NCBI GenBank assembly: GCA_903914955.1
Contig: CAIWRB010000363.1
Coordinates: forward strand, 1-47,306
Reading direction: 5' to 3'
Source: an uncultured Chloroflexota bacterium
GTDB lineage: Bacteria > Chloroflexota > Anaerolineae > Anaerolineales > Villigracilaceae
Length of the DNA: 47,306 nt
In this document: positions 3,237 to 38,859 of the stretch, one piece after another
How the letters are laid out: every line of letters starts with the position of its first letter
How positions within the stretch are numbered: position 1 is the first letter of the stretch
The notes under the pieces: model-generated
The model's database searches: none
What the model was told of the DNA's origin: nothing
What the model saw: only the letters and a program-made list of their open reading frames with translations
Made by a program: the position numbers and the translations under genes

Positions 3237-3331
3237 TATGAATAGGGAAATTTTTCATCGGAGGCATATACACTTACTTTTTGGAAAATAGACGCAATTT
3301 CCAATTGTGAAGCGCATGGTAAAATTCCTGC

Positions 3332-4922: not shown

Positions 4923-5021
4923 AGCGTGGACAAGTAGATAAGTAAACAGAAAATCGAGCATTACTTTGCGTAAACAGGTTTAGAAAATATGCCTGAGAAT
5001 TAATTTTATTAAGAGGCAACT

Positions 5022-6125: not shown

Positions 6126-6154
6126 CCTTCAACCTTCGACCAGTACCCTTTGAC
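6096..6154 (+). repeat. Inverted repeat spanning the stop codon of the PanE-like gene
   Basis: GTCAAAGG (6102-6109) is complementary to CCTTTGAC (6147-6154). A second, nested pairing of 14 of 17 bases links 6096-6112 with the C/T-rich arm 6124-6140 (GACCTTCAACCTTCGAC). The TGA stop of the upstream gene is at 6123-6125. It has no U-tract, so it is not a normal terminator. See the finding on recurring stem-loops. Confidence 0.5.
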
Positions 6155-6165
6155 AACAAAAAAAC

Positions 6166-7860
6166 ATGCCAATTAAAATCGTTCAACCAAATAAAAATGT
6201 CGAGCTCCATCTTTCTGATGGCCGTGTACTCTCCGGCTTGCGGGGAGCGCAAGTGGGGGATTTCCTACAAATGGTCAAGAATGATTTTAGCGCGCCCATT
6301 GTTGCCGCGATCATCAATAATGAAATTCACGAACTTACTTATAAAATAGAGACCGAATCACATTGCACGCCTGTCACCATGGACACTGCCGATGGCGCAC
6401 GTATTTATCGGCGTTCGCTTATCTTTCTGCTGGAAATTGTTTTCGCAAACCTCTTCCCTAAAAGTAAACTTACCATTGATCATTCTGTTTCATCGGGCGG
6501 GTTTTACTGTCAGGTAACGGGGGATATCATATTGACGCGAAAGGAACTTGATTTGCTTAAAGTCCACATGAAAAAATTTGTGGATAAAAACCAATCATTT
6601 GAACGCAAGCAAATTCCCGTTCAGGAAGCCATTCAATATTTCACGCAGCTTGGTTACGAAGATAAAGCTCGTTTATTTTCGCACCGTCATAAAGATTACG
6701 TTACACTATATAGCCTCAATGATCAAATGGATTACATGCATGGCTATATGGTTCCATCCACTGGATACTTGCGCTGGTTCGATCTCAATCTTATTAACGG
6801 TGGGTTCACCATCCAATTCCCGCGTCGTCATGCGCCCATGCAGCTTGAGCCGATGGGCGACTACCCAAAATTATTAAGTGCCTTTCGTCAATATGGCAAT
6901 TGGTTGACGCATCTCGCTATTGATAATGTTGGTGCACTTAACGACGCCATCGAAGCGGGTCGCGCGGATGAGATCGTGCTGGTTTCGGAAGCGCTTCATG
7001 AACAAAATGTCGCAGATATCGCGCAACAGATCGCGCAAAAAAATTCACGTATTATTCTAATTGCCGGCCCATCCTCCTCAGGCAAAACTACTTCGTCACG
7101 CCGCCTCGCGATCCAATTGCTTGCGCGCGGTGTTTCGCCTTATCCGCTTGAGCTTGATAATTATTTTATAGACCGCGAAAAGACTCCGCTCGGCGAAGAT
7201 GGCAAGCCTGATTTTGAAAACCTTGAAGCGTTGAATCTGACCCGCCTCGCGCAGGACATCGAAAAAATTCTCGGCGGAGAAAAAGTCCAAATGCCGCGCT
7301 ACAACTTCAAATCTGGGATGAGCGAAATCGGCGAGACCGTCCAATTAAAAGACGGACAACCACTTATCCTCGAAGGCATTCATGGGATGAACCCGCGCCT
7401 CATTCCTGCCCATTTGACTGATGCGGCCTTTCGAGTTTATGTCTCTGCCCTGACACAACTCAACCTCGACCGCCATAATAGAGTTTCGACCACCGATACG
7501 CGTCTCATTCGGCGAATAGTGCGCGACGCGCGCGAGCGTGGATATTCTGCCACGCAGACTATCAGTCGCTGGGAGTCTGTCCGCCGCGGCGAGAAGCGGC
7601 ACATCTTCCCCTATCAGGAAAATGCGGATGTGATGTTCAATTCTGCGTTGGTGTATGAACTTTCTGCGCTCAAAGCGTTTGCTGAACCTTTGCTTAGGCA
7701 GGTGCAATATCGCGCGCCAGAGTATATCGAAGCACGAAGATTGCTGGCCTTCCTTGAATGGTTCCTGCCATTGGATATGAATTTGATCCCAGCGAATTCG
7801 ATTGTGCGCGAATTTTTAGGAGACTCAGGGTTGAAAGATTTCAAGATTTGGAGAGGATAG
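6166..7860 (+). CDS. TGS-domain/uridine kinase-like fusion protein
   Basis: A 564-residue fusion. Residues 1-70 look like a TGS domain (VELHLSDGRVLSG...). Residues 70-200 resemble the threonyl-tRNA synthetase second additional domain, with the metal-site-like segments IDHSVSSGGFYC and FSHRHKDY. Residues from about 290 form a P-loop kinase of the uridine kinase/phosphoribulokinase type, with Walker A GPSSSGKTT near 301-309, LELDNYFIDRE, and ILEGIHGMNP. This architecture is a known uncharacterised nucleoside-kinase family in Thermotogae, Firmicutes and Chloroflexi; its real substrate is not known to me. The ATG at 6166 lies 40 bases after the preceding stop, behind an inverted repeat, so co-transcription is possible. 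Confidence 0.85.
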   Translation: MPIKIVQPNKNVELHLSDGRVLSGLRGAQVGDFLQMVKNDFSAPIVAAIINNEIHELTYKIETESHCTPVTMDTADGARIYRRSLIFLLEIVFANLFPKSKLTIDHSVSSGGFYCQVTGDIILTRKELDLLKVHMKKFVDKNQSFERKQIPVQEAIQYFTQLGYEDKARLFSHRHKDYVTLYSLNDQMDYMHGYMVPSTGYLRWFDLNLINGGFTIQFPRRHAPMQLEPMGDYPKLLSAFRQYGNWLTHLAIDNVGALNDAIEAGRADEIVLVSEALHEQNVADIAQQIAQKNSRIILIAGPSSSGKTTSSRRLAIQLLARGVSPYPLELDNYFIDREKTPLGEDGKPDFENLEALNLTRLAQDIEKILGGEKVQMPRYNFKSGMSEIGETVQLKDGQPLILEGIHGMNPRLIPAHLTDAAFRVYVSALTQLNLDRHNRVSTTDTRLIRRIVRDARERGYSATQTISRWESVRRGEKRHIFPYQENADVMFNSALVYELSALKAFAEPLLRQVQYRAPEYIEARRLLAFLEWFLPLDMNLIPANSIVREFLGDSGLKDFKIWRG

Positions 7861-11160: not shown

Positions 11161-12378
11161 TTAGGAGATTTCACTGATCTTTGAAATGATATCGATTTGA
11201 GAAATCAGCAGATTTTTATCTGCCTTGCGGGATTTTAATTCTACCATTCCCTCTTTGAGATTCTTTTCCCCAACCGTAATTCTTATGGGGCAGCCGATCA
11301 GATCCGCATCGTTGAATTTGACGCCAGCGCGTTCATCACGCTCATCGAATATTACAGATATATCAGCAGACTGCAGCGTGTTATATATTTCTTCGACTTT
11401 TGCACGCGTATCCAATTCTTTACCAGCGATATGCATGAGATATACATCAAAAGGCGCTGCGGATTTGGGGAGGGTAAGCCCTTTGTCATCGTGATGTGTT
11501 TCGGCGAGGGCAAATAGTATGTTTTCGATATAAACTTCAGATCGTGTTGTCAGGCTAATGGCAGGCAGGATCGACAAGGTGTTGTCGCATTGAAAACATC
11601 GATCGCCTGTTTTTGCTTCAACCAGGTCCGCAATGATCTCGGCGGAATAATCACGATCAAAATTTGTGTTGAGCAGGTGATATCCCGCTTCATTCGCTCC
11701 TGCTGCCAGATTTGGAGATTGTGGAATCAGATCATCTACAACGATGATCGCGTGCTTTAATCCCACAGGCGATGCATATCCTGCGGATGCGCCTGCAGCT
11801 ATGATCTCTTCATATGTTGCCAGACGGAATTCGCCAATTGTGTTCTTAAGTTTTGCCTCGCTGAGGGTCATGTCTCCGCGCACGACAACAAATATAAATT
11901 GATTGTCTTGGGTGCGTGTGTACATCAAGGCTTTGGCGGTTTTCTCTTTAGGAATGTTTAAGAAATTGGCGAGCGCTTCGATCGTGTGACAATTAGGAGT
12001 TAATACTTTTTCAATTGGAAGTTTTGATTCCTGCGGTGAGGCTGGTTTCTTGAATTGAGCCAGCTCTTTGCGTTGAGTGTAATTACATGAAGGACAATGG
12101 ATAACTTCGATGGAACCAGTTGAAAGTGGAAGGAAGGTTTCGGTTTCGGTTGAAATAATCGGGAGAGATAACGTTGCCTTGAGACTCTCAAAGGGAGGTG
12201 AGGAGAAAGAAGGGTCGGATGCTAATTTTTTTAATCGTGAAATCACCTGCTGACCAAGTGGAAGGATCTCATTTTCGCGAGTCATATATCCCGCGCGGAC
12301 GAGCCAGCCAAAGCCTGGCGTGCGCGCGTTGTTGGGGAATTCTCTTTGGGTTTGGATGTGGAGTTCTTGATATTTCAT
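11161..12378 (-). CDS. ProRS-derived protein lacking the class II synthetase core; putative trans-editing factor
   Basis: 405 residues, against about 570 for bacterial prolyl-tRNA synthetase. Residues 4-51 match the ProRS N-terminus (LHIQTQRE, LVRAGYM, LPLGQQVISRL). The aminoacylation core with motifs 1 and 2 is then absent; the sequence goes to a zinc-ribbon-like C95PSC98. Residues 127-250 match the INS editing domain, retaining K149 in KTAK and H234 before NFDRD, the equivalents of the editing lysine and histidine of E. coli ProRS. C261-FQ-C264 completes the cysteine pairs. Motif 3 (GIGxxR) is lost: the region reads SEVYIENILFALAE. Residues 307-400 match the anticodon-binding domain (FDERDERAGVKFNDADLIGCP). 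The frame is intact, so this looks like a maintained paralogue rather than a pseudogene. It probably edits mischarged tRNA-Pro or binds tRNA; a complete proS is expected elsewhere in the genome. Confidence 0.8.
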   Translation of the reverse strand: MKYQELHIQTQREFPNNARTPGFGWLVRAGYMTRENEILPLGQQVISRLKKLASDPSFSSPPFESLKATLSLPIISTETETFLPLSTGSIEVIHCPSCNYTQRKELAQFKKPASPQESKLPIEKVLTPNCHTIEALANFLNIPKEKTAKALMYTRTQDNQFIFVVVRGDMTLSEAKLKNTIGEFRLATYEEIIAAGASAGYASPVGLKHAIIVVDDLIPQSPNLAAGANEAGYHLLNTNFDRDYSAEIIADLVEAKTGDRCFQCDNTLSILPAISLTTRSEVYIENILFALAETHHDDKGLTLPKSAAPFDVYLMHIAGKELDTRAKVEEIYNTLQSADISVIFDERDERAGVKFNDADLIGCPIRITVGEKNLKEGMVELKSRKADKNLLISQIDIISKISEIS

Positions 12379-12430
12379 TTGGATGGCAATCCCTTTCTCC
12401 CTTTTTAGAAAAGGGGAAACAGGAGTGATG

Positions 12431-12961
12431 TTAGGCTTCGTTTTTTTTCTTCCCGCTTCGCATCATTTTCTGCGTTGATTCAATAACTGGCGCTGATTCA
12501 GGCATCATGATCGGTGTGGCAGCGATGGATTCTGCCTGGGCGACCTCTGATGGTGTCGCCTCGGGAGCAGGCTCGAGGTTAAGTTCGACTGATTCTTCCA
12601 TCCGAATTTGGCCGCGTAGAAAGGCGCCTTCTTCCGTTACGAATGCTGTTGTGACCACGTCTCCCCAGACGCGTCCTGAGGCGCGAATCTCCAGTTTTTG
12701 CGTGGTGATGTTGCCACGGACTGCGCCTGCCACGATGACGGTATTTGCACGTACGTTCTGGCATGTGACACGTCCCGTCTCGCCAACTACAAGCATGCCT
12801 CGCATCGCGATCTCGCCCTCGAATGCGCCTTCAATGCGGACTCCGCCTGAACCGTTGATACTGCCATGCCAGACCACGCCAGAGCCAAGTACAGAAGTAA
12901 TGCGCTCGACGGCTTGAACTGGCTGGGATGTATCAGTGGGCGTGGTATTTCGTTTGAACAT
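12431..12961 (-). CDS. Bactofilin family protein (polymer-forming cytoskeletal)
   Basis: About 176 residues. The core (about residues 20-125) shows the repetitive beta-helix pattern of bactofilins/DUF583: GSGVVWHGSINGSGGVRIEGAFEG, then VVGETGRV, VIVAGAVRGNI and LEIRASGRVWGDV. A flexible Pro/Ala-rich tail ends in a basic stretch (KMMRSGKKKNEA). Bactofilins polymerise without nucleotide and scaffold cell-wall or polar structures. The frame is open back to 13000, but that start falls inside the fabI terminator stem, so ATG 12961 (MFKRN...) is preferred. It lies downstream of fabI and upstream of the ProRS-derived gene. Confidence 0.85.
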   Translation of the reverse strand: MFKRNTTPTDTSQPVQAVERITSVLGSGVVWHGSINGSGGVRIEGAFEGEIAMRGMLVVGETGRVTCQNVRANTVIVAGAVRGNITTQKLEIRASGRVWGDVVTTAFVTEEGAFLRGQIRMEESVELNLEPAPEATPSEVAQAESIAATPIMMPESAPVIESTQKMMRSGKKKNEA

Positions 12962-12980
12962 ATAAGTAATTTTACCGTAG

Positions 12981-13024
12981 AAAAGAAAAAGGGCGGACAT
13001 TGCACGAAATGCAGTCCGCCCTTC
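12981..13024 (-). terminator. Intrinsic terminator after fabI
   Basis: A perfect 10-bp stem, AAGGGCGGAC (12989-12998) with GTCCGCCCTT (13014-13023), with an inner TGCA/TGCA pairing. On the minus strand the stem is followed by TTTTTCTTTT. It lies just past the fabI stop. Confidence 0.9.
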
Positions 13025-13038
13025 CTAGGTCTTAATTC

Positions 13039-13827
13039 CTACTCGTCTTTATCACTAATCTGCACGCCAATGGTATTAAAGCCAGCATCAACATATAAAA
13101 CCTCACCAGTGATGTGAGATGATAGATCAGATGCGAGGAATACTGCCGAGTTGCCGACATCTTCAATTGTGACGTTTTCGCGTAAGGGCGCCATATCCGC
13201 GAAGTGTTTATACATATCACGGAAGCCGCCCACGCCAGCCGCAGCGAGTGTGCGGATCGGCCCCGCTGAAATAGCATTGACGCGAATTTTCTGGGGGCCA
13301 AGATCATATGCCAGATATCTTGTGGATGATTCCAGCGCGGCCTTTGCAACTCCCATCACATTGTAATGCGGGGCAACTTTTACCGAGCCGTAATAGGTCA
13401 TGCACATCACCGAAGCACCAGGGTTGAAGAGCGGCAGAAAGGCGTTGGTCAGCGCGACGAGCGAAAATACGCTGATTTCCATTGCCACTTTGAAACCTTC
13501 GCGGCTAGTTTCGTGAAACGGTTTGTTCAATTCATCACGTCCTGCGTATGCGATGGAATGAACCAGAACATCGATCTTCCCAAAATGTTTAGCGGCTTTT
13601 TCAACGGTGATAGAGATCTGATCATCTTTTGTCACATCACATTCTTCGACCCATGTACAATCCACCTTTTCAGCCAGAGGCTTTACTCGGCGTTCAAGCA
13701 TTTCACCCGCATAACTGATACCGATATTTGCACCTTCACGTTTGAAAGCCTGCGTAATACCCCACGCAATAGACTTGTCGTTCGCAAGACCAAAGATCAA
13801 CGCATTCTTACCTTCTAAAAGTCCCAT
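13039..13827 (-). CDS. fabI: Enoyl-[acyl-carrier-protein] reductase (NADH)
   Basis: A 262-residue short-chain dehydrogenase of the FabI type, catalysing the last step of each fatty-acid elongation cycle (trans-2-enoyl-ACP to acyl-ACP). The N-terminal LIFGLANDKSIAWGI is the FabI-specific cofactor loop. The catalytic tyrosine and lysine are Y155 and K162 in YNVMGVAK, with Y145 in TYYGS also conserved; these sit one residue before the E. coli positions. The SAGPIRTLAAAGVGGF substrate loop and C-terminal ITGEVLYVDAGF are intact. The ATG has a GAGGAG ribosome site. It is followed by a strong terminator. The call is unambiguous. Confidence 0.97.
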   Translation of the reverse strand: MGLLEGKNALIFGLANDKSIAWGITQAFKREGANIGISYAGEMLERRVKPLAEKVDCTWVEECDVTKDDQISITVEKAAKHFGKIDVLVHSIAYAGRDELNKPFHETSREGFKVAMEISVFSLVALTNAFLPLFNPGASVMCMTYYGSVKVAPHYNVMGVAKAALESSTRYLAYDLGPQKIRVNAISAGPIRTLAAAGVGGFRDMYKHFADMAPLRENVTIEDVGNSAVFLASDLSSHITGEVLYVDAGFNTIGVQISDKDE

Positions 13828-13856
13828 TGAGCATCTCCTCGTTATTGGTTACACAA

Positions 13857-14435
13857 TTATCTAATTTTGAGCATCGATTCTTTGACTAAAAATCGCCATG
13901 GCTTGGATAACCATGGTTCTGGCGTTTTATTTAAACCCACACGAGGGCCAATCGTCACGCTTTTATTGGGGACGAAAATCCCCGTTTCGATTCTTAAGCT
14001 GGAATTTGCCTCTGTCAAATTGATATTATTCTCACTTTTGGTGATTTCCAGCGCCTGAGTCAGCTTTCCCGGACCCAACGAGTCCCGTCCCTGACGACGC
14101 TCCAATATCACTTCGATCCCTTCAATCGGCTGGATTGCACGGATCAATACAGCAGCCGGGAATCCCTCTTTTTCAGTGACTGCATTCAGCATCCAGTGAT
14201 TGCCATAAGTGAAATAAACATATGCGTGTCCCGGCAGGCCAAACATCGGTGCCGTGCGAATGGTTCTGCCCGCTTTTGCGTGACTTGCAAGATCATCAAA
14301 ACCAAAGTATGCCTCGGTTTCACTGATTAGGCCGACCAATTTCACTCCATCCATTATCCGCACTAATCGCGCACCAAGGAGTTCGCGTGCGACAGTCAAA
14401 GTGGGGCGGTCATAGAATTTTGTTGGGAGAGTCAT
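13857..14435 (-). CDS. DNA-3-methyladenine glycosylase (AAG/MPG family)
   Basis: About 192 residues, normal for bacterial Aag-type glycosylases that excise alkylated purines in base-excision repair. Motifs: PTLTVARELLGARLV, then ISETEAYFG with the probable catalytic Glu (E41), SHAKAGRTIRTAPMFG, AYVYFTYGNHWMLNAVT, and AAVLIRAIQP with LGPGKLTQALEI. The frame is open to TTG 14474 (13 more residues), but homologues begin near MTLPTKFYDRP, so ATG 14435 is preferred. It lies 29 bases upstream of fabI on the same strand and may be co-transcribed with it. Confidence 0.9.
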   Translation of the reverse strand: MTLPTKFYDRPTLTVARELLGARLVRIMDGVKLVGLISETEAYFGFDDLASHAKAGRTIRTAPMFGLPGHAYVYFTYGNHWMLNAVTEKEGFPAAVLIRAIQPIEGIEVILERRQGRDSLGPGKLTQALEITKSENNINLTEANSSLRIETGIFVPNKSVTIGPRVGLNKTPEPWLSKPWRFLVKESMLKIR

Positions 14436-21550: not shown

Positions 21551-22279
21551 ATGCCCATGCGTTGGATCTATATTTCCCCTCATTTGGATGATGCTGTACT
21601 CTCCGCGGGCGGCTTAATCTACGAACAAACTCGCGCGGGCATGGATGTGGAAATCTGGACGTTTATGTGCGGATTCCCTCCCAGCGAAGAACTCTCTCCT
21701 TTCGCACAGGTGCTCCATTTTCAGTGGGGTATTTCCGCCGCCGCCGAAGTGGTGACTGCCCGCCGCGCAGAAGATATCAAAGCTGTGAACATACTCGGCG
21801 CGAAAACAATTCATTTTGATTTTCTCGATTGTATTTACAGACAAGGCAAAAATGGAGACTGGCTATACTCGGATGTTTTTCTTCCCCCCCATGAGGACGA
21901 TCAGGATTTATCCGCTCGAATAGCAGAATCTATTTCCGCCCGACTCAACCCGACCGATCAACTGGTCTGTCAACTTGGGCTTGGTTCACACGTGGACCAT
22001 GTCCTCGTCCGCCGCGCAGTCGATTTGATTCCGCGGCCTGTGCTTTATGACGTGGATATTCCCTACCTGTTCAATTCACCGAATGAATTGGCACCGCAAA
22101 CTGCCGGGATGAAAGAAAATATCCATCGAATATCCGAACCAGGTTTGAGTTTATGGCAGGATGCGATTACCGTTTATGCTTCACAGATCAGCAGCCTGTT
22201 TGAAAGTCCAGAAGCGATGCGGGGGCTTATCAAGAATTATTGTGAAGAAAATGGCGGCCTTCGTCTCTGGTCAGTGTAA
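21551..22279 (+). CDS. PIG-L family deacetylase
   Basis: About 242 residues of the LmbE/PIG-L zinc-dependent N-deacetylase family. The zinc motif PHLDDAVLSAGG at the N-terminus (HxDD) and GSHVDHVLVRRAV (HxxH block) in the second half are intact, as is ARRAEDIKAVNILGA. Members remove acetyl groups from GlcNAc-type sugars or conjugates. GTG 21542, ATG 21551 and ATG 21557 are all possible starts; no ribosome site decides between them. It ends 29 bases before the microprotein-MBOAT-SGNH genes and is likely co-transcribed with them, which would pair a deacetylase with an acyltransferase on the same polymer (inference). Confidence 0.88.
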   Translation: MPMRWIYISPHLDDAVLSAGGLIYEQTRAGMDVEIWTFMCGFPPSEELSPFAQVLHFQWGISAAAEVVTARRAEDIKAVNILGAKTIHFDFLDCIYRQGKNGDWLYSDVFLPPHEDDQDLSARIAESISARLNPTDQLVCQLGLGSHVDHVLVRRAVDLIPRPVLYDVDIPYLFNSPNELAPQTAGMKENIHRISEPGLSLWQDAITVYASQISSLFESPEAMRGLIKNYCEENGGLRLWSV

Positions 22280-22308
22280 TATTGATTCCGCCCCTATTGG
22301 TGACTATT

Positions 22309-22437
22309 ATGAAAAAAATATTGAATAGCATATTTACTCGCGAGAACATTTTGGCTCTTTTGCTCTGTTTGATATTGATCGCTTTGGTAATATTTACTGC
22401 TGATACTTCGCCAACCTGGATCTATCAAGGATTCTAA
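22309..22437 (+). CDS. 42-residue membrane microprotein with C-terminal Tyr motif (DltX-like)
   Basis: A short gene: ATG 22309 to TAA 22435-22437, 42 residues. It has a basic start (MKKILNSIFTREN), one hydrophobic helix of about 16 residues (ILALLLCLILIALVIF), then TADTSPTWIYQGF at the end. The terminal WIYQGF, with Y39, resembles the FIYNEF-type C-terminal motif of DltX, the microprotein of Gram-positive dlt operons whose tyrosine is reported to carry the acyl group between the MBOAT DltB and DltD. The stop overlaps the MBOAT ATG (TAATG), so the two are translationally coupled. A GGTGA ribosome site lies about eight bases upstream. Its place directly before MBOAT and SGNH genes strongly supports a role as the acyl relay. 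The homology call rests on the motif and context only. Confidence 0.8.
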   Translation: MKKILNSIFTRENILALLLCLILIALVIFTADTSPTWIYQGF

Positions 22438-23849
22438 TGTCGGTCTCGCAGATTCTTATTCTCGCCGTAGTTGCTGTTCTCGTCAATCAATTGAGGAAAG
22501 GGCGTTCTCTGGCTTTGCTAGCCGTGAGCGCGCTGGTGATTTATTGGATTCAACCTTATCAAGAACCGGTCAACTTGATTTTTTGGTTCCCAACATTAAC
22601 TCTGGCGATAACTGTGATTTTTTGGCTGATTACCTCCAGTCCTGAAACTCGGGCTTGGAGACAGAATTGGGGCACGGTGGCGATTTTGTTGAGCGTAGTT
22701 GTGCTCGTTGACCTGAATCGTTATTTTCAAGTTGAGGTTTTTTTTATCACTAATACACCAAGATTTCAGTTGGTTGCTATTGTGTTGTTGGGCGTCGTGG
22801 CTGTTGGCTTGCTACTGGGGCGCATCAAGAAATTTCATGGGTTGGTTTTCACGTTTGCGATAATTGGATTGATCACGATGCTAATTTTTCTAAAAACGCC
22901 GTTAGCTTCGACGAGGTTGATCGAATCAATCTCCAGGTTTCGGGGGAAAGAGAGTGGTGGAGTATCTTCATTCGCATGGCTTGGATTTTCTTATATTTCC
23001 TTTCGTCTTTTGCATACAATCATTGATCGAAAAGCGGGACGTTTACCACCGGTCACGTTGGACGAGTATGTCAATTATGTTATTTTTTTCCCGACATTTA
23101 CAGCGGGACCGATAGACCGCCTTGAACGATTTACCCGTAATTTGACCGAGCCTGTATTTTTGGATCAGGAAGGCTGGGTGGATGCGGGCACTCGTCTGTT
23201 CTGGGGCTTGTTCAAGAAGTTCATCATTGCAGATGCGTTGGCGTGGATCGCTTTGAATCAGGCCTTTGTGCCAGATGTTCGCTCAGTGAGTTGGATGTGG
23301 TTTTTTTTGTATGCATATTCGCTGCGAATATATTTTGATTTTAGCGGTTATACCGACATTGCAATTGGGCTTGGTAAATTGTTGGGAATGCAGCTACCTG
23401 AAAATTTTGATTCGCCATATCTCAAGCGGAACCTGACTCAGTTTTGGAACTCCTGGCACATGACGTTAACGCAATGGTTCAGATCCTATTTTTTCAATCC
23501 GCTCACACGTGCTATGCGTTCAGCCAAAATACCCTTGCTATTGCCGGTGATGATCTTGATTACACAGGTAGCCACCATGATTTTGATTGGCTTATGGCAT
23601 GGCGTGACTCTAGGCTTTTTTCTTTGGGGCACATGGCACGGGGTTGGATTATTCATTCAAAACCGATGGAGTGAATGGATGCGTACTCATACGCCCGTCT
23701 GGGGGATGAAACCCTTGGGCGCGGATGTTTTGAAATATTCAGGCATTTTCTTTACCTTTAATTTTGTGACATTAGGTTGGCTGTTTTTCTTTTTGCCAGA
23801 TCCTGCCATGGCGTGGAATGTAATGTTGAAACTATTTGGTGTCGCATGA
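22437..23849 (+). CDS. MBOAT family O-acyltransferase (DltB/AlgI-like)
   Basis: A 470-residue polytopic enzyme with about eleven membrane helices. The MBOAT core is clear: FPTFTAGPIDRLERF, FDFSGYTDIAIGLGKLLG, ENFDSPYLKRNLTQFWNSWHMTL-type segment with H341, and IGLWHGVTLGFF with H388. The two histidines are 47 residues apart, the same as H289 and H336 of DltB as I recall. A further WHG has H401. It is expected to take an acyl group from a cytoplasmic donor and pass it across the membrane, here probably onto the microprotein tyrosine. The donor is unknown, as no ligase or acyl carrier gene lies nearby. Overlaps on both sides (TAATG and ATGA) tie it to the microprotein and SGNH genes. Confidence 0.93.
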   Translation: MSVSQILILAVVAVLVNQLRKGRSLALLAVSALVIYWIQPYQEPVNLIFWFPTLTLAITVIFWLITSSPETRAWRQNWGTVAILLSVVVLVDLNRYFQVEVFFITNTPRFQLVAIVLLGVVAVGLLLGRIKKFHGLVFTFAIIGLITMLIFLKTPLASTRLIESISRFRGKESGGVSSFAWLGFSYISFRLLHTIIDRKAGRLPPVTLDEYVNYVIFFPTFTAGPIDRLERFTRNLTEPVFLDQEGWVDAGTRLFWGLFKKFIIADALAWIALNQAFVPDVRSVSWMWFFLYAYSLRIYFDFSGYTDIAIGLGKLLGMQLPENFDSPYLKRNLTQFWNSWHMTLTQWFRSYFFNPLTRAMRSAKIPLLLPVMILITQVATMILIGLWHGVTLGFFLWGTWHGVGLFIQNRWSEWMRTHTPVWGMKPLGADVLKYSGIFFTFNFVTLGWLFFFLPDPAMAWNVMLKLFGVA

Positions 23850-24952
23850 ATACCATGGTCCGTCCGATAGCGGTGATTGTCAAGGCAGTCTGTTTATTTG
23901 TTGTGATTAACTTGGTCTATGGCCTGATAGAGCCTCCGATTGCGGAAATCTCCGCCTACAACGTGTTTGTCCCCGGTCTGGAACGAACGCCGTTTGGCAA
24001 TAGCGCTGATCCTTACACTGTAGCCATAGATAACGCGGATGCGATGTTTGCTTCTCACGAGATTTCTGCCGAAAAACAACCTGATGAGATTCGAGTTGCG
24101 CTGATCGGTGATTCATCTATTTGGGGTGAAAGCCTTTTACTTGAAAATACACTGTCCGGGCAATGGAATCAACTTGGTTCTCAGTGTGGTGGCAAAAAGA
24201 TCAAAGCATACAACCTTGGTTATCCTCACCCTTCAATTATTAAAGACCTGATTTTTATGGATGAAGTAATGAGCCGGCAGCCTGATGTGATTATATGGTT
24301 CGTCACTTTGAACACATTGATGAATCAATATCGCTTGCATCCTTTTTTAGCGGGGAACCACGAGCGAGTCCTGAAAATAGTGGAGAAATATGATCTTTCC
24401 TTTGGCCCTAGAAAAATTTTGTCGGAGCAAGAGACAGGTTTCTACGAAAAGACACTTGTTGGACAGCGATCCCTACTGGCGCGTTTACTAAAATTGCAGG
24501 GGCTTAGTTTGATTTGGTCTGCAACGGGAGTTGATTTTCATGTTGAACCAGGTATCCCACAAGCGCTCGCATCGGATGTAGATAAAGATATTGCATACCG
24601 AGCTATGGAACCAGGGACTGATCTGCGCGAGTCTCTTTTGCTTGATGCGATTGGCGCAGGATTTGATATTGCCGGTGAGACTCCGGTTTTGCTTGTTAAT
24701 GAGCCGATCTTTATCGCCAACGGACTGCATTCTGATGTGCGCTATAATGATTTTTATCCACGTTGGGCATATGACCAATATCGCGATGTACTTATAAAGC
24801 AGACTGAGAAATCCCTCTTCAACTATCTTGATATGTGGAACACCATCCCACCAGAAAATTTTATCGATACACCTTTGCATCTCAATGCCGAAGGTGAACG
24901 TCTGCTCGCTGAGCAGATCAACCCAACTTTACTTTCCATGGTTTGTCCATAA
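23846..24952 (+). CDS. Membrane-anchored SGNH hydrolase-like protein (DltD/AlgX-like role)
   Basis: About 368 residues from ATG 23846, which overlaps the MBOAT stop (ATGA). The frame is open upstream, but that part lies inside the MBOAT gene. One N-terminal helix (residues 8-27) anchors a soluble domain expected outside the membrane. SGNH block I is IGDSSIWGE with nucleophile S90; block V is D341-TPL-H345 followed by LNAEGERLL. LGYPHPSI and VIIWFVTLNTLMNQ correspond to the Gly and Asn blocks. In alginate, teichoic-acid and peptidoglycan O-acylation systems such a protein makes the final transfer to the polymer. The acceptor here is not known. Confidence 0.88.
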   Translation: MNTMVRPIAVIVKAVCLFVVINLVYGLIEPPIAEISAYNVFVPGLERTPFGNSADPYTVAIDNADAMFASHEISAEKQPDEIRVALIGDSSIWGESLLLENTLSGQWNQLGSQCGGKKIKAYNLGYPHPSIIKDLIFMDEVMSRQPDVIIWFVTLNTLMNQYRLHPFLAGNHERVLKIVEKYDLSFGPRKILSEQETGFYEKTLVGQRSLLARLLKLQGLSLIWSATGVDFHVEPGIPQALASDVDKDIAYRAMEPGTDLRESLLLDAIGAGFDIAGETPVLLVNEPIFIANGLHSDVRYNDFYPRWAYDQYRDVLIKQTEKSLFNYLDMWNTIPPENFIDTPLHLNAEGERLLAEQINPTLLSMVCP

Positions 24953-27837: not shown

Positions 27838-28995
27838 CTACGGCGTGGGAGGAATTAATCCAAATGTTGGCGCGCAGACAATATCATAATATTCCAACTC
27901 AGTGGCTTTGTTTTGCTCGGCATATGCAGCGGCATCCTTACCCATTACTCGGATGGTATCCAATTGTGCCAACACTTGCGTCGGCCAATATCGCGGAAGG
28001 GTCAGGCGTGGATCATTCGCAGGCCCTTCAGGAATAAAAGCTGGGCGCCCCGCATCTGGCGCATCTGAGAGCGGAATCCAGTTGAACATGATCGGTCCAC
28101 GCGGATTGATGGTGAATCCCACGCGATAACCAACTTCCCTTGCGACTTGTACTCCGCGCGGAGTGAATCCGCCACCAGGCCAGATGTAGGCAATGGGAGT
28201 TTTCTGGAAATACTTTTGTAAATTATCAATTGAACCTTGAAGTTCGCTGTGAATGAACTCCTCGGTTGAGTTGGGGCTAATGTTGATATTATGAATCACG
28301 CCATGAGCCTGATAGTCTACCCAGCCTTCGTTGGAAAGATTAACGTTTTCCTGCAGGAATTGATCTTCTCCGCCAAAGGCGCTGATCCAGCCGTTGATCA
28401 CAGGCCAGCCCCATTGTTCATAATAGGGACGGAAATGTTCGAAGGCTTGGGCGGTATGGCGGTCATCATAAGTGAGCACCACCGAACGTTGTGGAATGTG
28501 CGCATTGCTATCTAAAAATTCTGCGAGCTGAGTTGCGTTTATGGCTTCAAATCCCAATTCCTTGAGGCTGCCCATTAACTTGTTGAAATCTTTAACAGTA
28601 ATGTCATTGGCATCCAGGGAACTGGAATCTTTATTAATGCCGTGGAACATGATCACCATTACGATCGTGCCGGGTGCAGCGTTGTTCGGATCCCATTTGG
28701 ATTTAAGATACTGACACGAATCCTGGATGTACGTATGCGGTACATCCAGAGGGTTCAATACTGTTGTTGTAAAAGCGGGCGGTAATGCCGGCGGCGTGCG
28801 TTGAACGGTTGCGGTAGGAATGGGAGTTTCAGTTGGTGCAAGTGTAGCGGTTGAAACATTGATCTGAGCGAAGGCAGTTTCAATCGCTGCGGTCATTACG
28901 ATCCGCGGATCAGCGGTAGGAGCTGCAGGCTGGCAGGATGCCAATAATCCAGCAAGCAAGCTAAAGGTTAAGAAAAGATGCGAGGTTTTCATCAT
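27838..28995 (-). CDS. Lipoprotein polysaccharide deacetylase (NodB-like)
   Basis: A 385-residue secreted lipoprotein. The signal peptide ends in the lipobox LLASC, with C21 as the lipidated residue, followed by a Thr/Pro-rich linker to about residue 80. The NodB-type domain has VVLTYDDRHT (motif 1, two Asp), AHGVIHN (motif 2, HxxxH) and IAYIWPGGGFTPRG (motif 3, altered from the usual RxPYG). It is expected to remove acetyl groups from cell-wall or capsule glycans at the outer face; the variant motif 3 suggests an atypical substrate. It is followed by no clear terminator. Confidence 0.85.
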   Translation of the reverse strand: MMKTSHLFLTFSLLAGLLASCQPAAPTADPRIVMTAAIETAFAQINVSTATLAPTETPIPTATVQRTPPALPPAFTTTVLNPLDVPHTYIQDSCQYLKSKWDPNNAAPGTIVMVIMFHGINKDSSSLDANDITVKDFNKLMGSLKELGFEAINATQLAEFLDSNAHIPQRSVVLTYDDRHTAQAFEHFRPYYEQWGWPVINGWISAFGGEDQFLQENVNLSNEGWVDYQAHGVIHNINISPNSTEEFIHSELQGSIDNLQKYFQKTPIAYIWPGGGFTPRGVQVAREVGYRVGFTINPRGPIMFNWIPLSDAPDAGRPAFIPEGPANDPRLTLPRYWPTQVLAQLDTIRVMGKDAAAYAEQNKATELEYYDIVCAPTFGLIPPTP

Positions 28996-29071: not shown

Positions 29072-30157
29072 TTATTCGTCACTTTTGCCTGAGATGAAAT
29101 CCTCCACCTTGTCGCGGCAGATATCATCGCGGAATTGCTTGGGCGGGGTCTTGAAGAAATAAGAAGATGGCCCAACGATCGGCCCCGCGAGTTCGCGGTC
29201 AAGTGCGATCTTGGCACAGCGCACCGCGTCGATCATCACACCCGCCGAATTGGGACTGTCCCACACTTCCAGTTTTAATTCCACATTGAGCGGAACGTTG
29301 CCGAAGGTGGTGCCTTCCATGCGGATGTAGCACCACTTGCGGTCGGTCAGCCATGGGACATGGTCACTCGGCCCAACGTGGACATTATCCTTGCCCATGT
29401 CGTAGGGCACCATGCTGGTAACGGCGTTGGTCTTGGAAATTTTCTTGCTTTCCAATCGTTCGCGTTCGAGCATGTTGAGGAAGTCTGTGTTGCCGCCAAA
29501 GTTGAGTTGATAGGTGCGGTCGATCTTCACGCCTCTATCCACGAATAGGCTGGTCAACACACGATGAACAATCGTCGCCCCGACCTGACTCTTAATGTCA
29601 TCGCCAAGAATGGGCAGGCCTGCATCGCGGAAACGCTTCCCCCAATATTCAGAAGATGCGATGAATACAGGAATGGCATTCACGAATGCGCAGCCCGCTT
29701 CAAGCGCCTGCTCGACGTACCATTTAGTTGCCATTTCAGAACCAACTGGCAGGAAGTTGATGATCACATCCGTTTTGGTATCTTTCAACAGTTTGACTAT
29801 ATCCGCTGTGGGGCCGGGCGCTTTTGTGATGATCTCGCTCAAATATTTTCCGAGACCATCATGTGTCATACCGCGCACAACTGGAACATTGAGATTGGGG
29901 ACATCTGCGAACTTGAAGGTGTTGTTTGGTTCGGCAAAGATGGCTTCGGATAGGTCCTTGCCAACTTTGTTGACATTTACATCAATGCCAATGGTGAACT
30001 CAATATCGCCGACGTGATACTCGCCAAGTTGTGTGTGCATGATGCCGGGGATGGCTTCATCCTCTTTGGCGTTTTTGTAAAACTGTACACCTTGCACAAG
30101 CGACGACGCGCAATTTCCAACGCCAATAATGGCGACACGTACTTTTTTATTTGCCAT
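29072..30157 (-). CDS. ino1: Inositol-3-phosphate synthase
   Basis: About 361 residues of the myo-inositol-1-phosphate synthase family, converting glucose 6-phosphate to L-myo-inositol 1-phosphate with NAD. Visible are the Rossmann motif [52 protein letters not shown] and [11 protein letters not shown], all prokaryotic/archaeal Ino1 landmarks. The frame is open to 30187, but ATG 30157 has a GGAGAG ribosome site and homologous [12 protein letters not shown] start. The product feeds phosphatidylinositol-type lipids or inositol solutes. It has its own strong terminator and is divergent from the histidine kinase gene. Confidence 0.94.
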
Positions 30158-30232
30158 AATATTTCTCTCCTTGATATTTAATTGCAATTTCCTTGTTTTA
30201 GGTCAACTTCCCTTTCAGATAGACCTGTGATG

Positions 30233-34023: not shown

Positions 34024-35295
34024 ATGAATTCCAAACCGAAGCCGCAAGTTAAGAAAGTCGTCCTCGCTTATTCAGGCGGACTGGATACATCCGTGATCGT
34101 GCCGTGGCTCAAAGAGAACTATGGCTGTGAAGTAATCTGCTTTTGCGCCGATGTGGGGCAGGTTGATGAGGACATGCGCGGTCTCGAACAGAAAGCCATC
34201 AACAGCGGCGCGAGTCAATGCATCATCCACGACATGAAGGAAGAGTTCGCTGCCGAATATCTTTTTCCAATGCTCAAAGCGGGGGCGGTTTATGAACACA
34301 AGTATTTATTGGGCACATCCGTGGCCCGTCCATTAATTGCAAAACATCTCGTTGATGTGGCTCACGAAGTCGGCGCGGATGCGATCGCGCATGGCGCGAC
34401 AGGCAAGGGTAATGATCAGGTTCGTTTCGAGCTAACCGTCATGGCGCTTGACCCGCGCCTCAAGATCATCGCTCCATGGCGCGAGTGGGATATCCGCTCG
34501 CGTGAAGATGCGATCGCCTATGCCGCGAAACATAATGTGCCCGTCACCGCCACCATTAAATCTATTTACAGCCGCGACTCAAATCTCTGGCATCTTTCGC
34601 ATGAGGGTGGTTTGCTCGAAGACCCGTGGAATGAACCTGAAGAAGCGATGTTCCAACTTTCCACTTCACCAGAGAATGCTCCAGAAGAAGGTGCGTATGT
34701 CGAGATCGAATTTGAAAGCGGCAACCCGATCGCGGTAAATGGCGAGAAACTTTCAGCTGCAAAAATTGTTGAAACGCTGAATGTCATTGGCGGTGCGCAC
34801 GGCATTGGCCGCGTTGACCTGGTTGAGAATCGACTCGTCGGCATGAAGTCGCATGGCGTCTATGAAACTCCTGGCGGTACAATTTTGCTTTACGCGCATC
34901 GCGAACTTGAGTCACTTGTCATTGACCGCGAAACAATGCACTTCAAGGAAATGGTAGCGGTGAAATATGCCGAGGTCACATACAACGGATTGTGGTTCAC
35001 GCCTCTTCGCGAAGCAATTGACGCCTTTGTTAATTCCACCCAGGGCCCTGTCACGGGGCTCGTGCGCCTCAAACTTTACAAAGGCAACATCATCACCGCG
35101 GGCCGCAAGTCGCCGTTTAGTTTGTATCGCGAAGATTTTGCAACTTTTGGCGAAGAGGATGTCTATGACCAAAGTCACGCCGAGGGTTTCATTCGCCTAT
35201 TTGGCCTCAGCCTGAAAGTCCGCGCGATGAACGGACTGCCCGTTTCTGGTCTCGATATGCCCAAACCTGATTATTCGAAATTCAAACGAGATTAG
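34024..35295 (+). CDS. argG: Argininosuccinate synthase
   Basis: A 423-residue enzyme joining citrulline and aspartate with [21 protein letters not shown] is the N-type pyrophosphatase P-loop; [32 protein letters not shown] and [17 protein letters not shown] are family signatures. It is the first structural gene after the attenuator, with GGAG upstream of the ATG. argH follows after 25 bases and then the LysW-type genes, which ties the LysW pathway here to arginine. Confidence 0.97.
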
Positions 35296-35320
35296 GTAAA
35301 CACGTACACAAGGAGTTCAG

Positions 35321-36682
35321 ATGACCCTCTGGGGCGGACGCTTTTCAACAAAATTAAACGATCAAGCCTGGGATCTCAATTCATCCCTGCCCGTCGATCA
35401 GCGCATGGCAATTCAAGATGTGGATGGTTCGCTTGCGTGGGCGGGTGCTTTGCACAAGGCAAATATTCTTTCGGATGAAGAATACACTTCGATCTCGCTT
35501 GGGCTTGATACTGCCAAAGCAGAATTCGATTCGGGCGAGTTTCTTTTCGTTCCCTCCGATGAAGATATTCACACCGCCGTAGAGCGCCGCCTCACGGAAC
35601 TGATTGGCGTGACTGCAGGAAAACTCCACACAGGACGCAGCCGAAACGATCAAGTCGCCACCGATTTCAGGTTGTGGATGTTGCAAGCCATCCCTCATCT
35701 GCTTTCTGCATTCAGTCTTCTGCAAACTACGCTCGTGGAACAAGCCGAACTTGCAGGCGAGACTCTCATGCCTGGTTACACTCATCTGCAACGCGCCCAA
35801 CCGATCCTGCTTTCACATTGGTGGCTGAGTCATTATCATCCACTTCAACGTGACCGCGAACGATTTACCGATTTAATTAAACGTGTTTCGATATTGCCTC
35901 TTGGAAGCGGGGCACTTGCAGGTACGCCTGTCCCTGTGGACCGCGCCGCGCTGGCTGAGTCACTTGGATTTGCAGTCGCTTCGCCCAATAGCCTCGACTC
36001 TGTTTCAGATAGAGATTTCGCCGCTGAGTTCTTATTCTGCGCCACAATGACAGGCATTCATCTGAGTAAACTTTCGGAGCAAATTGTTTTGTACACCAGC
36101 ACTGAATTCGGTTTCTTCGAACTTTCTGATGCATTCTCAACGGGTTCGAGTCTAATGCCGCAGAAAAAAAATCCAGATGTATTTGAACTCACACGCGGCA
36201 AGGCTGGCACGTTGATCGGTTTGTTGACAGGGCTGCTCGCAACACTCAAAGGTTTACCCTCCACCTATGATAAAGATTTACAGGAAGATAAAGCGCCTGT
36301 TTTTATGGCAACCGATACATTGCTTGCAGTCCTTCCAGTTATCGCTGGTGCGCTGCGGACGATCACTACGAAACCTGAACGAATGCGAAACGCGATCGAC
36401 TCGTTCATGATGGCGACCGATCTGGCGGATTATCTCGTCAGCAAGGGAATCCCGTTTCGAGAGACTCATGTCATTGCTGGAAAAGCTGTCCGCGTGGCTG
36501 TGGAGCAGCATGTTCAGTTGGAGGAACTGTCACTCGAAGCGTATCAGGCGCTCAGTCCGGCATTTGAAGCGGATGTGTATCAGGTTTTCGACCCGCTGAA
36601 ATCCATCGAAAAAAGAAATGCGATTGGCGGCACGAGTCTCCAATCTGTAAAAAATCAAATACAACAAATCAAAGGAGATTAA
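35321..36682 (+). CDS. argH: Argininosuccinate lyase
   Basis: A 453-residue lyase of the fumarase superfamily, splitting argininosuccinate into arginine and fumarate. LWGGRFS at the N-terminus, LHTGRSRNDQVATDFRLW, PGYTHLQRAQP and the superfamily signature GSSLMPQKKNPD are intact. The ATG has AAGGAG upstream. The lysW gene starts three bases after its stop, a strong sign of one operon. Confidence 0.97.
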   Translation: MTLWGGRFSTKLNDQAWDLNSSLPVDQRMAIQDVDGSLAWAGALHKANILSDEEYTSISLGLDTAKAEFDSGEFLFVPSDEDIHTAVERRLTELIGVTAGKLHTGRSRNDQVATDFRLWMLQAIPHLLSAFSLLQTTLVEQAELAGETLMPGYTHLQRAQPILLSHWWLSHYHPLQRDRERFTDLIKRVSILPLGSGALAGTPVPVDRAALAESLGFAVASPNSLDSVSDRDFAAEFLFCATMTGIHLSKLSEQIVLYTSTEFGFFELSDAFSTGSSLMPQKKNPDVFELTRGKAGTLIGLLTGLLATLKGLPSTYDKDLQEDKAPVFMATDTLLAVLPVIAGALRTITTKPERMRNAIDSFMMATDLADYLVSKGIPFRETHVIAGKAVRVAVEQHVQLEELSLEAYQALSPAFEADVYQVFDPLKSIEKRNAIGGTSLQSVKNQIQQIKGD

Positions 36683-36685
36683 AAA

Positions 36686-36856
36686 ATGTCTGCTATAACC
36701 TGCCCTGAATGTGAAGCCCAAGTTGGATTGGATGATGGGACCGAAGTTGGTGAGATTATTGTCTGCTCAGATTGCGGTGTTGATCTCGAAATAATTGCGC
36801 TTGAGCCTGCCGCTGTGCAACTGGCGCCCATGGAACAGGAAGATTGGGGAGAATAG
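36686..36856 (+). CDS. lysW: LysW amino-group carrier protein
   Basis: A 56-residue acidic carrier. The N-terminal zinc ribbon has CPEC (after MSAIT) and CSDC; the C-terminus is the conserved EDWGE, whose last Glu gamma-carboxyl is amidated by LysX/ArgX to hold the amino group of alpha-aminoadipate or glutamate. In Thermus it serves lysine; in Sulfolobus it serves both lysine and arginine. It has an AAAGGAG ribosome site within the end of argH and starts three bases after the argH stop. In this operon it most likely carries glutamate toward ornithine. Confidence 0.95.
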   Translation: MSAITCPECEAQVGLDDGTEVGEIIVCSDCGVDLEIIALEPAAVQLAPMEQEDWGE

Positions 36857-36907
36857 CAGAAAGTAGAAGGCGGAATGCAGAAAAGAATCTGTCTTCTACT
36901 TTCTGCT
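36855..36907 (+). repeat. 15-bp perfect inverted repeat across the lysW stop
   Basis: AGCAGAAAGTAGAAG (36855-36869) is exactly complementary to CTTCTACTTTCTGCT (36893-36907), with a 23-base loop that can form a small CAGA/TCTG hairpin. The TAG stop of lysW is at 36854-36856. No U-tract follows, so it probably shapes mRNA stability or processing between lysW and lysX. Confidence 0.75.
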
Positions 36908-36925
36908 TTCTCTTGGATGGTCATT

Positions 36926-37795
36926 ATGCAAAAGAGATTGAAGATTGGCGTTTTATATTCACGTGTGCGTGTGGAAGAAAAATGGATTTTCGCGGCGATG
37001 GAAAAACGCGGCATTGATTATGAAAGACTCGATGACCGCGTGATTTCATTTGACCTGGAAAATCCTGAACCGTGGCGCGCGTTTGACGCGGTGCTGGAAC
37101 GCAGCATCAGCTACACAAGCGGATTATATGCCCTGCGATTGTTGAACGCGTTCGGTGTGCTGACAGTCAACACTGCGCTGGTGGCTGAAATTTGCGGTGA
37201 CAAATTGACCACCTCCGCGATGCTGGCGAAGGCGGGCGTGGCGCAGCCTCGCAATGTGGTGGCATTCACGCCTGAGGCCGCGTTGGAAGCGATCGAAGCG
37301 TTTGGCTATCCGGTTGTATTGAAACCTGTTGTTGGTTCGTGGGGGCGGCTTCTGGCAAAGATCAATGACCGTGACGCGGCGGAAGCGGTGCTTGAACACA
37401 AGGCCACGCTCGGTTCGGTACAACATTCAGTTTTTTATATTCAGGAATTTATCGAGAAACCAGGCCGCGACATCCGCGCTATCGTGATCGGTGACCGCGT
37501 GGTGACGGCCATGTATCGTAAATCTGAGCATTGGATTACGAACACAGCGCGCGGTGGCGAAGGCGAGTTGTGTCCCATCACGCCTGATATCGAAGAGTTA
37601 TGCTTGAAAGCGACTGCGGCTGTTGGCGGCGGCGTTTTAGCCGTGGACCTGGTTGAACATCCTCAAAAGGGATTGGTTGTCAATGAGATCAATCACACGA
37701 TGGAATTTCATACAATGCAGCCTGTCAGCGGAATCGATATCGCAGGTGAGATCGTGGAATACGTAATAGCAAATACAAGCATGAGGGGTGAATGA
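36926..37795 (+). CDS. lysX: LysW-glutamate/aminoadipate ligase (LysX/ArgX)
   Basis: About 289 residues, ATP-grasp ligase of the RimK-like group that couples the amino group of glutamate or alpha-aminoadipate to the terminal Glu of Lys[16 protein letters not shown] opens the N-terminal domain; [55 protein letters not shown] are ATP-grasp and metal motifs. The frame is open to 36875, but that codon lies in the loop of the inverted repeat; ATG 36926 gives the usual LysX start. Substrate choice cannot be settled from sequence alone; argGH in the operon favours glutamate. The stop overlaps the next start (ATGA). Confidence 0.9.
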
Positions 37796-38850
37796 TGAAC
37801 GCTTCGCGTGAATTAAAATTAACAGTTTCCATTATCGGCGGTTCGGGATATGGCGGCGGGGAACTGTTGCGCTTACTGTTGGGTCATCCCAATCTGGAAG
37901 TGAAGCAAGTCACGTCACGCTCGCATTTGGGTGAGTATGCCTATCAAGTCCACCCGAATCTACGAAAGCGGACTCAACTCAAGTTCAGCGATCCTGCCGC
38001 CCTGGAGCCTGTGGATGTTTTGTTCCTCGCCCAGCCGCATGGACAGGCTCAGCATAACATCGAGCAATATGTAAAATTGGGAACGAAGATCATTGATCTC
38101 GCTGCAGATTTCCGCCTGCGAGATGCGGCGTTATATGAAAAATGGTACGGCGAAAAACATTCCGCGCCTGAGTGGCTGAACAAGTTTGTATATGGGCTTC
38201 CAGAACTTCATCGCGACGAGATTTCCAAGGCTAGTTATATCAGCGGTGTCGGATGCAATGCCACGGCGGGCAACCTCGCGCTGCTGCCATTGGTCAAAGC
38301 GGATTTGATCGATTTATCGGCGCCTGTGATTATTGAAATAAAAGTTGGTTCATCAGAGGGTGGCGCTGAAGTAAATTCTGGTTCGCACCACGCGGAACGT
38401 GCAAATGTGATTCGAACATTCTCCGCGTTTGGGCATCGTCACACCGCGGAAGTGATTCAGGAAATGGGAGTGCAAGACGTTTCATTAACGATGACCGCCG
38501 TGGATTTAGTCCGCGGGGTATTGGCGACGGCTCATGCGAAAGTGAAAACGGGTGTTGTCACTAAAGACTTGTGGAAAGCCTATCGCGCAGTGGCGAATGA
38601 AAATCCGTTCGTGCGTGTGGTCAAGGAACAGCGTGGAATTTACCGTGTGCCCGAGCCGAAAATTTTGGCTGGCTCAAATTACGCCGACCTCGGTTTTGAA
38701 TTGGACGAGAGCAACGGTCATGTCGTTTCTATGTGCGCGATCGATAACTTGATGAAGGGTGCGGCTGGTACAGCGCTGCAGTGCATGAATTTGATGATGG
38801 GCTGGGATGAGACTCTTGGGTTGGAGTTCGCGGGCTTACATCCAATTTAA
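37792..38850 (+). CDS. lysY: LysW-linked gamma-glutamyl/aminoadipyl phosphate reductase (LysY/ArgC)
   Basis: A 352-residue NADPH-dependent reductase of the ArgC/LysY family, turning the carrier-bound acyl phosphate into a semialdehyde. [22 protein letters not shown] is the nucleotide motif; [17 protein letters not shown] holds the catalytic Cys; [32 protein letters not shown] has the conserved His. ANS-type and [15 protein letters not shown] close the protein. The ATG at 37792 overlaps the lysX stop. Next is the kinase gene, ten bases on. Confidence 0.92.
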
Positions 38851-38859
38851 GGATGAATT

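Follow-up and report, generated by a model that had tools for sequence, protein, structure and literature searches.

A tyrosine-tailed microprotein encoded beside a DltB-related MBOAT in Anaerolineae: probable membrane half of an acylation system distinct from Dlt

In a 47,306-nucleotide stretch of DNA from an uncultured Chloroflexota bacterium (contig CAIWRB010000363.1 of assembly GCA_903914955.1; hereafter the window), a gene for a 42-residue protein with a single hydrophobic helix and the C-terminal sequence WIYQGF lies between a PIG-L family deacetylase gene and the genes of an MBOAT acyltransferase and an SGNH-fold protein. Is this microprotein a genuine gene, does it act as an acyl shuttle in the manner of DltX, and from where would its acyl group come? 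Here, our comparisons across the phylum revealed that it is a real and conserved gene, and the microprotein, the MBOAT and the SGNH protein probably make up the membrane portion of an acylation machine with five parts, a sister of the Dlt system and separate from it. This answer starts from what was observed directly, namely conservation, gene order, co-occurrence by genome, grouping of the MBOAT with DltB and the lack of a fused tail in the microprotein-associated MBOATs. A sequence-only reading of the window had placed the microprotein between PIG-L and MBOAT-SGNH and had described the last three genes as overlapping, and both descriptions were borne out: the microprotein and MBOAT genes share TAATG (22435-22439), the MBOAT and SGNH genes share ATGA (23846-23849), and 29 bases separate the end of the PIG-L gene from the start of the microprotein gene.

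Conservation of the microprotein and its tailless MBOAT

A second microprotein-MBOAT-SGNH set was identified in the window's genome, on contig C205 (L001/L040 in our numbering of loci), and the arrangement seen in the window is therefore not due to chance. The C205 microprotein comprises 41 to 48 residues, depending on the start codon, ends in WIYLGF and is followed by the MBOAT and SGNH genes. To place both sets in the phylum, 400 of its genomes were searched twice, with the MBOAT and, independently, with a microprotein profile (E ≤ 1e-4). The MBOAT class of the window, defined by scores of at least 281 bits (the best gene outside the class reached 172 bits), was found in 34 of the 400 genomes; the microprotein occurs in precisely these 34 genomes, the other 366 giving no match. 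At the level of single loci, a short open reading frame with a Y..F tail lies within about 300 bases 5' of the MBOAT gene in 34 of the 37 loci chosen by MBOAT (36 and the window), one of which, L051, is cut by a contig end. In L067 the microprotein sits two genes upstream of the MBOAT, and in the genomes of L061 and L068 it is found on another contig, both copies ending in WIYQGF. The expectation that a short frame would be conserved before orthologous MBOAT genes thus held at both levels.

Residues E12, A16, L21, P35, I38, Y39, G41 and F42 are invariant in all 31 aligned microproteins, W37 and Q40 are kept in at least 90%, and the first tail position is Trp, once Phe; since these rows were gathered with a pattern containing the Tyr, the invariance of the tail is partly by construction, as it is in the loci chosen by microprotein. 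Fairer tests of tail conservation are the profile search itself and three further copies that it found and that were read later, all three of which end in WIYQGF, so that the conservation of Y39 asked for by the earlier reading extends to copies gathered without the pattern. The median proportion of nonsynonymous differences (pN) was 0.25, as compared with a near-saturated synonymous value (pS) of 0.74 (5460 pairs, 105 copies). In a GTDB-wide scan, the best 80 of 270 relatives carried Chloroflexota names, mostly from Anaerolineae, or the name 'uncultured bacterium', and a scan of plasmids returned one record, from Leptolinea sp. HRD-7 (plasmid AP024711.1, proteins BCY19582.1 and BCY19583.1), in which the microprotein and MBOAT genes are both annotated as hypothetical proteins. 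Locus L095, from the cultured Levilinea saccharolytica KIBI-1, includes an MBOAT gene, and its contig stops about 1.8 kb beyond the microprotein gene. The proposal of a DltX-like tyrosine relay with MBOAT and SGNH partners is supported, such a relay having been seen, among the relatives listed, only in Chloroflexota and unnamed bacteria. L136 (472-3116) has two microprotein genes, one preceding an SGNH gene and the other the MBOAT gene.

The window MBOAT ends in KLFGVA, and the members of its class likewise end near KLFG without a Tyr peptide. Among 20 lower-scoring MBOATs of the phylum, 18 carry a fused Y..F tail and two are DltB-like. About 78 MBOAT places lie below the split class and 35 of their tails were read, the proportions being valid for the set of 20 only; beyond it, seven MBOATs met in passing were all fused-tail, and eight more, mostly chosen as short or DltB-like, comprised two fused and six DltB-like genes. 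The window-class MBOATs thus lack a tail that most of the 20 lower-scoring enzymes carry fused, so wherever the microprotein is present, the peptide is encoded apart from the enzyme. A fused-tail identity of the window MBOAT (PatA/AlgI type) was accordingly rejected, as its C-terminus holds no Tyr motif. Five of the eight DltB-like genes also have a Y..F-tailed short frame upstream by pattern search; in the other three (L215, L219 and L220) no such frame was found by pattern, and the MBOAT gene is preceded by a ligase-like gene. In L044, L065, L081 and L088 the two MBOAT types are neighbours, a fused-tail gene lying a few kilobases upstream of the split cluster (L081 duplicates L044).

Further comparison of the MBOAT revealed its closeness to DltB. 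At E ≤ 0.01, DltB was the only protein in the PDB matched by a profile of the family, and in an unrooted tree of 37 proteins the window-type MBOATs form one clade (support 99/99) and the DltBs of Firmicutes and Chloroflexota another (100/100), the two together being separated from all 13 sampled fused-tail enzymes (100/99). For this final tree Chloroflexota DltBs were brought in, with five rows removed and seven added relative to a first tree that had a long DltB branch. The proposed catalytic residues H341 and H388, 47 residues apart, are invariant in 21 of 21 MBOATs; residues 289 and 336 of DltB show the same spacing, residue 289 being printed both as His and as Asn in the accessible part of PMC11035591. 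When a read-through chain from L117, in which microprotein and MBOAT are joined by one residue, was co-folded, the best model of the MBOAT reached a predicted local distance difference test score (pLDDT) of 85 and a predicted template modelling score of 0.84, and its nearest fold in the PDB is DltB.

SGNH partner, carrier protein and ligase

No Pfam family matched the window SGNH protein at E ≤ 0.01, and its fold was assigned from an AlphaFold model with a mean pLDDT of 94. Residues G88-D89-S90 and H345 are invariant across 51 aligned sequences. Against DltD structures, 269-290 residues of the model could be aligned with Z scores of 14.0-15.1 (6o93: Z 15.1, root-mean-square deviation 4.5, 278 residues), other SGNH proteins being tied in Z with shorter alignments. 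At the sequence level the protein gave no DltD match: an hhalign comparison with S. aureus DltD gave a probability of 0.3, and no NCBIfam family matched the window protein (E ≤ 1) or its paralog (E ≤ 0.01), the DltD model TIGR04092 (cut-off 150 bits) included.

The sequence-only reading had stated that loading genes of the DltA and DltC type are absent. This applies to the window copy only, as the majority of related loci, and the paralogous cluster on C205, carry an acyl carrier protein (ACP) and an acyl-AMP ligase, commonly in the order microprotein-MBOAT-SGNH-(GDSL)-ACP-ligase. After removal of eight duplicate and four fused-only loci, 109 non-redundant loci remained. Of these, 61 encode a carrier and 63 a ligase, and in 54 both occur with the microprotein and the MBOAT; these counts are lower bounds, many stretches ending at contig ends or flank limits. 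In the loci chosen by MBOAT, carrier and ligase are linked in 22 of 37. With thresholds placed at the gap in each score list (ligase at least 490 bits, carrier at least 66 bits), the ligase was found in 32 of the 400 genomes, 31 of which are microprotein genomes (31 of 34), and the carrier in 31, of which 30 are microprotein genomes (30 of 34). Co-occurrence with the microprotein within the 55 class members gave Fisher p values of 7e-11 (ligase) and 4e-10 (carrier), values that are too small owing to shared ancestry. In the window's genome, one carrier and one ligase passed, both on C205 (for the ligase, among 3 of 11 candidates scored; weaker copies may exist). In G046, G248 and G120 the two genes stand together elsewhere, unlinked to the MBOAT.

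Some loci depart from the common order. Seven of the 80 loci chosen by microprotein have a ligase gene just before the microprotein and no MBOAT nearby (L089, L097, L100, L102, L104, L119 and L120); no MBOAT, SGNH or carrier gene was found in these stretches, and several precede genes that by eye resemble hydrogenase maturation factors. L106 (6001-11709) and L116 (6001-8279) hold the microprotein followed by one or more SGNH genes, carrier and ligase, with no MBOAT in the stretch, and L140 holds microprotein and GDSL genes only.

The carrier contains a PF00550 domain above its cut-off (26.9 and 34.2 bits; cut-off 20.8) and an invariant DSF motif, with Ser39 and Phe40 in 61 of 61 sequences and Asp or Glu at position 44 in 60 of 61. 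S35 and E40 of DltC share this spacing, and E40 contacts DltB, according to the accessible text of PMC11035591. The ligase scored 144 bits against PF00501 (cut-off 29.9), and its best relatives in the PDB are fatty acyl-AMP ligases (FAALs), namely 3kxw and 3pbk, which align over most of its length with E values of about 1e-71. Its best matches among curated models are likewise to FAAL or related families, all below cut-off. No DltA was among its PDB matches at 1e-20, and its best piece against S. aureus DltA covered 84 residues at 28.5 bits. By these comparisons the cluster ligase is predicted to be of the fatty acyl-AMP ligase type, and the acyl group may for this reason well differ from D-alanine. 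Stand-alone FAALs are known to feed polyketide synthase and nonribosomal peptide synthetase systems or lipid pathways.

On the strength of these gene clusters and co-occurrences, we propose that the ligase would activate a carboxylic acid and load it onto the dedicated carrier. By analogy with DltB-DltX and with the auto-acylation of PatA, the MBOAT would accept the carrier-bound acyl group on the cytoplasmic side of the membrane and transfer it to microprotein residue Y39 on the outer side. The microprotein tail would then swing to the SGNH protein, where S90 would take over the group and transfer it to a hydroxyl group, either on a polymer of the envelope or on a glycolipid. The window copy would be a second copy supplied in trans, because the ligase and carrier that were found lie on C205 by the paralogous copy.

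Relation to Dlt and competing explanations

The proposed system resembles Dlt in its parts, having a Tyr-tailed single-helix microprotein, a tailless MBOAT of a neighbouring clade, an SGNH protein whose predicted fold may be similar, a carrier and an acyl-AMP ligase. It differs in its FAAL-like ligase and in its gene order, X-B-D-C-A in Dlt letters as opposed to the C-D-X-A-B of a canonical Chloroflexota dlt operon (L221, genome G028, from the window's family). All five genes of L221 exceed the cut-offs of their models (DltC 73 bits against 52, DltD 171 against 150, DltX 31 against 25, DltA 571 against 560, DltB 446 against 375), and its contig, C50, also holds a window-type cluster (L037). 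In further controls from the phylum, DltB of L216 scored 432 bits, DltC of L213 76 and DltX of L214 31 against 25. The DltA proteins of L214 and L216 fell just under TIGR01734 (512 and 548 of 560) and exceeded NF003417 (528 and 575 of 476), so that TIGR01734 is slightly strict in this phylum. Genes similar to those of the L221 operon were seen in L213, L214, L216 and L217, which were scanned in part.

The window-type parts fall short of the same models. The DltX model PF12459 matched none of 31 microproteins at E ≤ 10, and its two matches in the window's genome at E ≤ 1 were below cut-off and away from the microproteins. The genome's two MBOATs scored 214 and 229 bits against the DltB equivalog TIGR04091 (cut-off 375), the carrier 17 bits against the DltC equivalog TIGR01688 (52.35), and the best of 11 matches to the DltA equivalog TIGR01734 (559.85) reached 96 bits. 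Membership in Dlt was thus rejected: the window-type parts fail PF12459, TIGR04091, TIGR01734, TIGR01688 and TIGR04092, all of which the in-phylum control L221 passes. As judged by these models, and because the window's family also has canonical dlt, in L221 on one contig with a window-type cluster, the system is parallel to Dlt and not Dlt itself.

The second point of reference is the PatA-PatB/AlgI type, which likewise combines an MBOAT with an SGNH protein and uses a C-terminal Tyr hexapeptide as acyl shuttle. In the part of PMC12148441 accessible to us, the Tyr of the C-terminal FxYxxF peptide of PatA is described as auto-acetylated, and DltX as giving that peptide separately to DltB and DltD. 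The window-type system departs from the PatA-PatB/AlgI type, in which the peptide is fused, the donor is acyl-CoA and there is no carrier, by having the peptide as a separate protein with carrier and ligase alongside.

Would the acyl group nevertheless come from acyl-coenzyme A (CoA)? The earlier reading had held that the donor must differ from that of Dlt and was perhaps acetyl-CoA. In such a PatA-like relay, an acetyl or other acyl group would be taken from acyl-CoA, the Tyr tail would merely be separate, and ligase and carrier would serve another pathway. PatA itself uses acetyl-CoA (accessible text of PMC12148441), the window holds neither carrier nor ligase, and ligase-less second copies recur, as in genome G337, where L050 exists beside the ligase-linked L033. 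We nonetheless regard a CoA-fed relay as unlikely, since ligase and carrier track the microprotein by genome and often share its cluster, the ligase occurs in only one of 38 other genomes with an MBOAT match, and the MBOAT groups with carrier-fed DltB. The logic of ligase, carrier and MBOAT is instead that of Dlt, and it could be asked whether the clusters are simply a divergent D-alanylation system, with the same chemistry and acyl group, whose parts have drifted below the family models. The five parts are the same in kind, the MBOAT groups with DltB, the SGNH model can be aligned with DltD, and WIYQGF is near the FIYQGF of Chloroflexota DltX (10 aligned residues). Such drift is, however, improbable in view of the canonical operon that scores above cut-off in all five parts on a contig shared with a window-type cluster, and of a ligase that sides with FAALs over DltA. 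The microprotein could also be an MBOAT subunit with a structural or regulatory function, carrying no acyl group, a role to which we assign little probability. A regulatory role of DltX was once considered (PMC11035591, as far as its text is accessible), and the co-fold model does not place the tail; the same kind of hexapeptide has been shown to be acylated in PatA (PMC12148441, in its accessible part), the split MBOATs are without the peptide where the microprotein exists, and its Tyr is conserved.

Several findings weigh against a carrier-fed relay sister to Dlt. In the L117 co-fold, microprotein residues 30-41 have a pLDDT below 50, and the model does not fix the position of Y39. Beyond the motif, a profile comparison of the microprotein with S. 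aureus DltX showed no similarity (probability 3.6). At the thresholds used, the ligase is missing from three and the carrier from four of the 34 microprotein genomes, the two lie on different contigs in G283, G262, G037 and G349, and neither was found near the window copy within the 47 kb. The DltB docking residues M302, V305, I306 and M309 are replaced in the window MBOAT by N354, T357, R358 and R361, and the surface that docks the carrier must thus differ. The ligase is below the cut-off of every listed FAAL model, the best being NF006624 with 347 of 600 bits. Finally, a fused-tail MBOAT of Metabacillus also stands beside a carrier and a ligase and thus looks carrier-fed, so that carrier feeding is not tied strictly to tail splitting. 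This locus (L185, 260-4588 of plasmid pB218 of Metabacillus sp. B2-18) encodes a carrier, an AMP-binding protein, an MBOAT with a fused FIYGGF and a hypothetical protein that is SGNH-like by eye.

The window-type clusters therefore follow the five-part logic of Dlt but use a different loading enzyme, and they occur in a phylum that also has canonical Dlt and about whose envelope chemistry little is known. To us it appears evenly balanced whether some Anaerolineae run two microprotein relays, Dlt for D-alanine and a FAAL- and carrier-fed sister that moves a fatty or other non-amino acid to an envelope polymer. If they do, split relays of the DltX type would represent a general design that is fed by carriers and in which loading modules can be exchanged, Dlt being a single branch of it. 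The microprotein would be a second case of a Tyr shuttle produced on its own polypeptide, and outside the motif it shares little sequence with DltX. This makes the acyl-Tyr mechanism testable on a second system, in which the acyl group is probably a different one, and likewise the question of whether tail splitting accompanies carrier feeding. In its accessible part, PMC12148441 describes MBOAT/SGNH pathways other than Dlt as being without microprotein and carrier and as using acyl-CoA; the window-type family contradicts the first two points by its gene content and the third by inference. Our literature search, which left subscription papers mostly outside its reach, listed no title or abstract describing a FAAL-fed microprotein-MBOAT-SGNH system, and 'fatty acyl-AMP ligase' and 'MBOAT' never occurred in one of the papers searched.

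Features of the locus and neighbouring genes

The coordinates of the window locus and of the two clusters used for comparison are collected in the table.

Table. Features of the window locus, of the paralogous cluster on contig C205 and of the canonical dlt operon
Feature	Location	Positions	Strand	Remarks
PIG-L family deacetylase gene	window	21551..22279	+	PF02585 46.1 bits, cut-off 28.2; 5' neighbour of the microprotein gene
Microprotein gene (42 residues)	window	22309..22437	+	MKKILNSIFTRENILALLLCLILIALVIFTADTSPTWIYQGF; basic N-terminus, one hydrophobic helix, C-terminal WIYQGF; proposed acyl shuttle
Tail codons W37-I38-Y39-Q40-G41-F42	window	22417..22434	+	Y39 at 22423-22425, proposed acyl-accepting Tyr
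MBOAT acyltransferase gene	window	22437..23849	+	PF03062 69.2 bits, cut-off 27; DltB-sister class without C-terminal Tyr tail
MBOAT H341	window	23457-23459	+	proposed catalytic residue
MBOAT H388	window	23598-23600	+	proposed catalytic residue
SGNH-fold extracytoplasmic transferase gene	window	23846..24952	+	N-terminal hydrophobic helix; fold from AlphaFold model
SGNH S90	window	24113-24115	+	proposed nucleophile
SGNH H345	window	24878-24880	+	proposed base
Carrier gene of paralogous cluster	C205 (L040)	12011-12256
Ligase gene of paralogous cluster	C205 (L040)	12323-14002
Canonical dlt operon	C50 of G028 (L221)	3095-7421		window's family; order dltC-dltD-dltX-dltA-dltB

The PIG-L gene had been read as the head of the unit, with a de-N-acetylated glycan as the possible acceptor. 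At E ≤ 1e-8, PIG-L was found in two of 121 loci, namely in the window itself and in L073, which is closely related and encodes an identical microprotein, and no PIG-L gene is present in the C205 stretch that holds the paralogous set. Its role as head of the unit was rejected on these counts, both loci belonging to one lineage; we judge PIG-L not to be part of the conserved system, and nothing outside the lineage of the window and L073 favours acylation of a de-N-acetylated glycan.

Elsewhere in the window, genes for a myo-inositol-1-phosphate synthase (29072-30187, minus strand) and a polysaccharide deacetylase (27838-28995, minus strand) accompany PIG-L and possibly relate to inositol lipid chemistry. 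Further downstream (34024-40853, plus strand), argininosuccinate synthase and lyase genes are followed by genes for a LysX-like ATP-grasp protein, an amino acid kinase and a class III aminotransferase, a set that resembles carrier-protein-mediated arginine or lysine biosynthesis.

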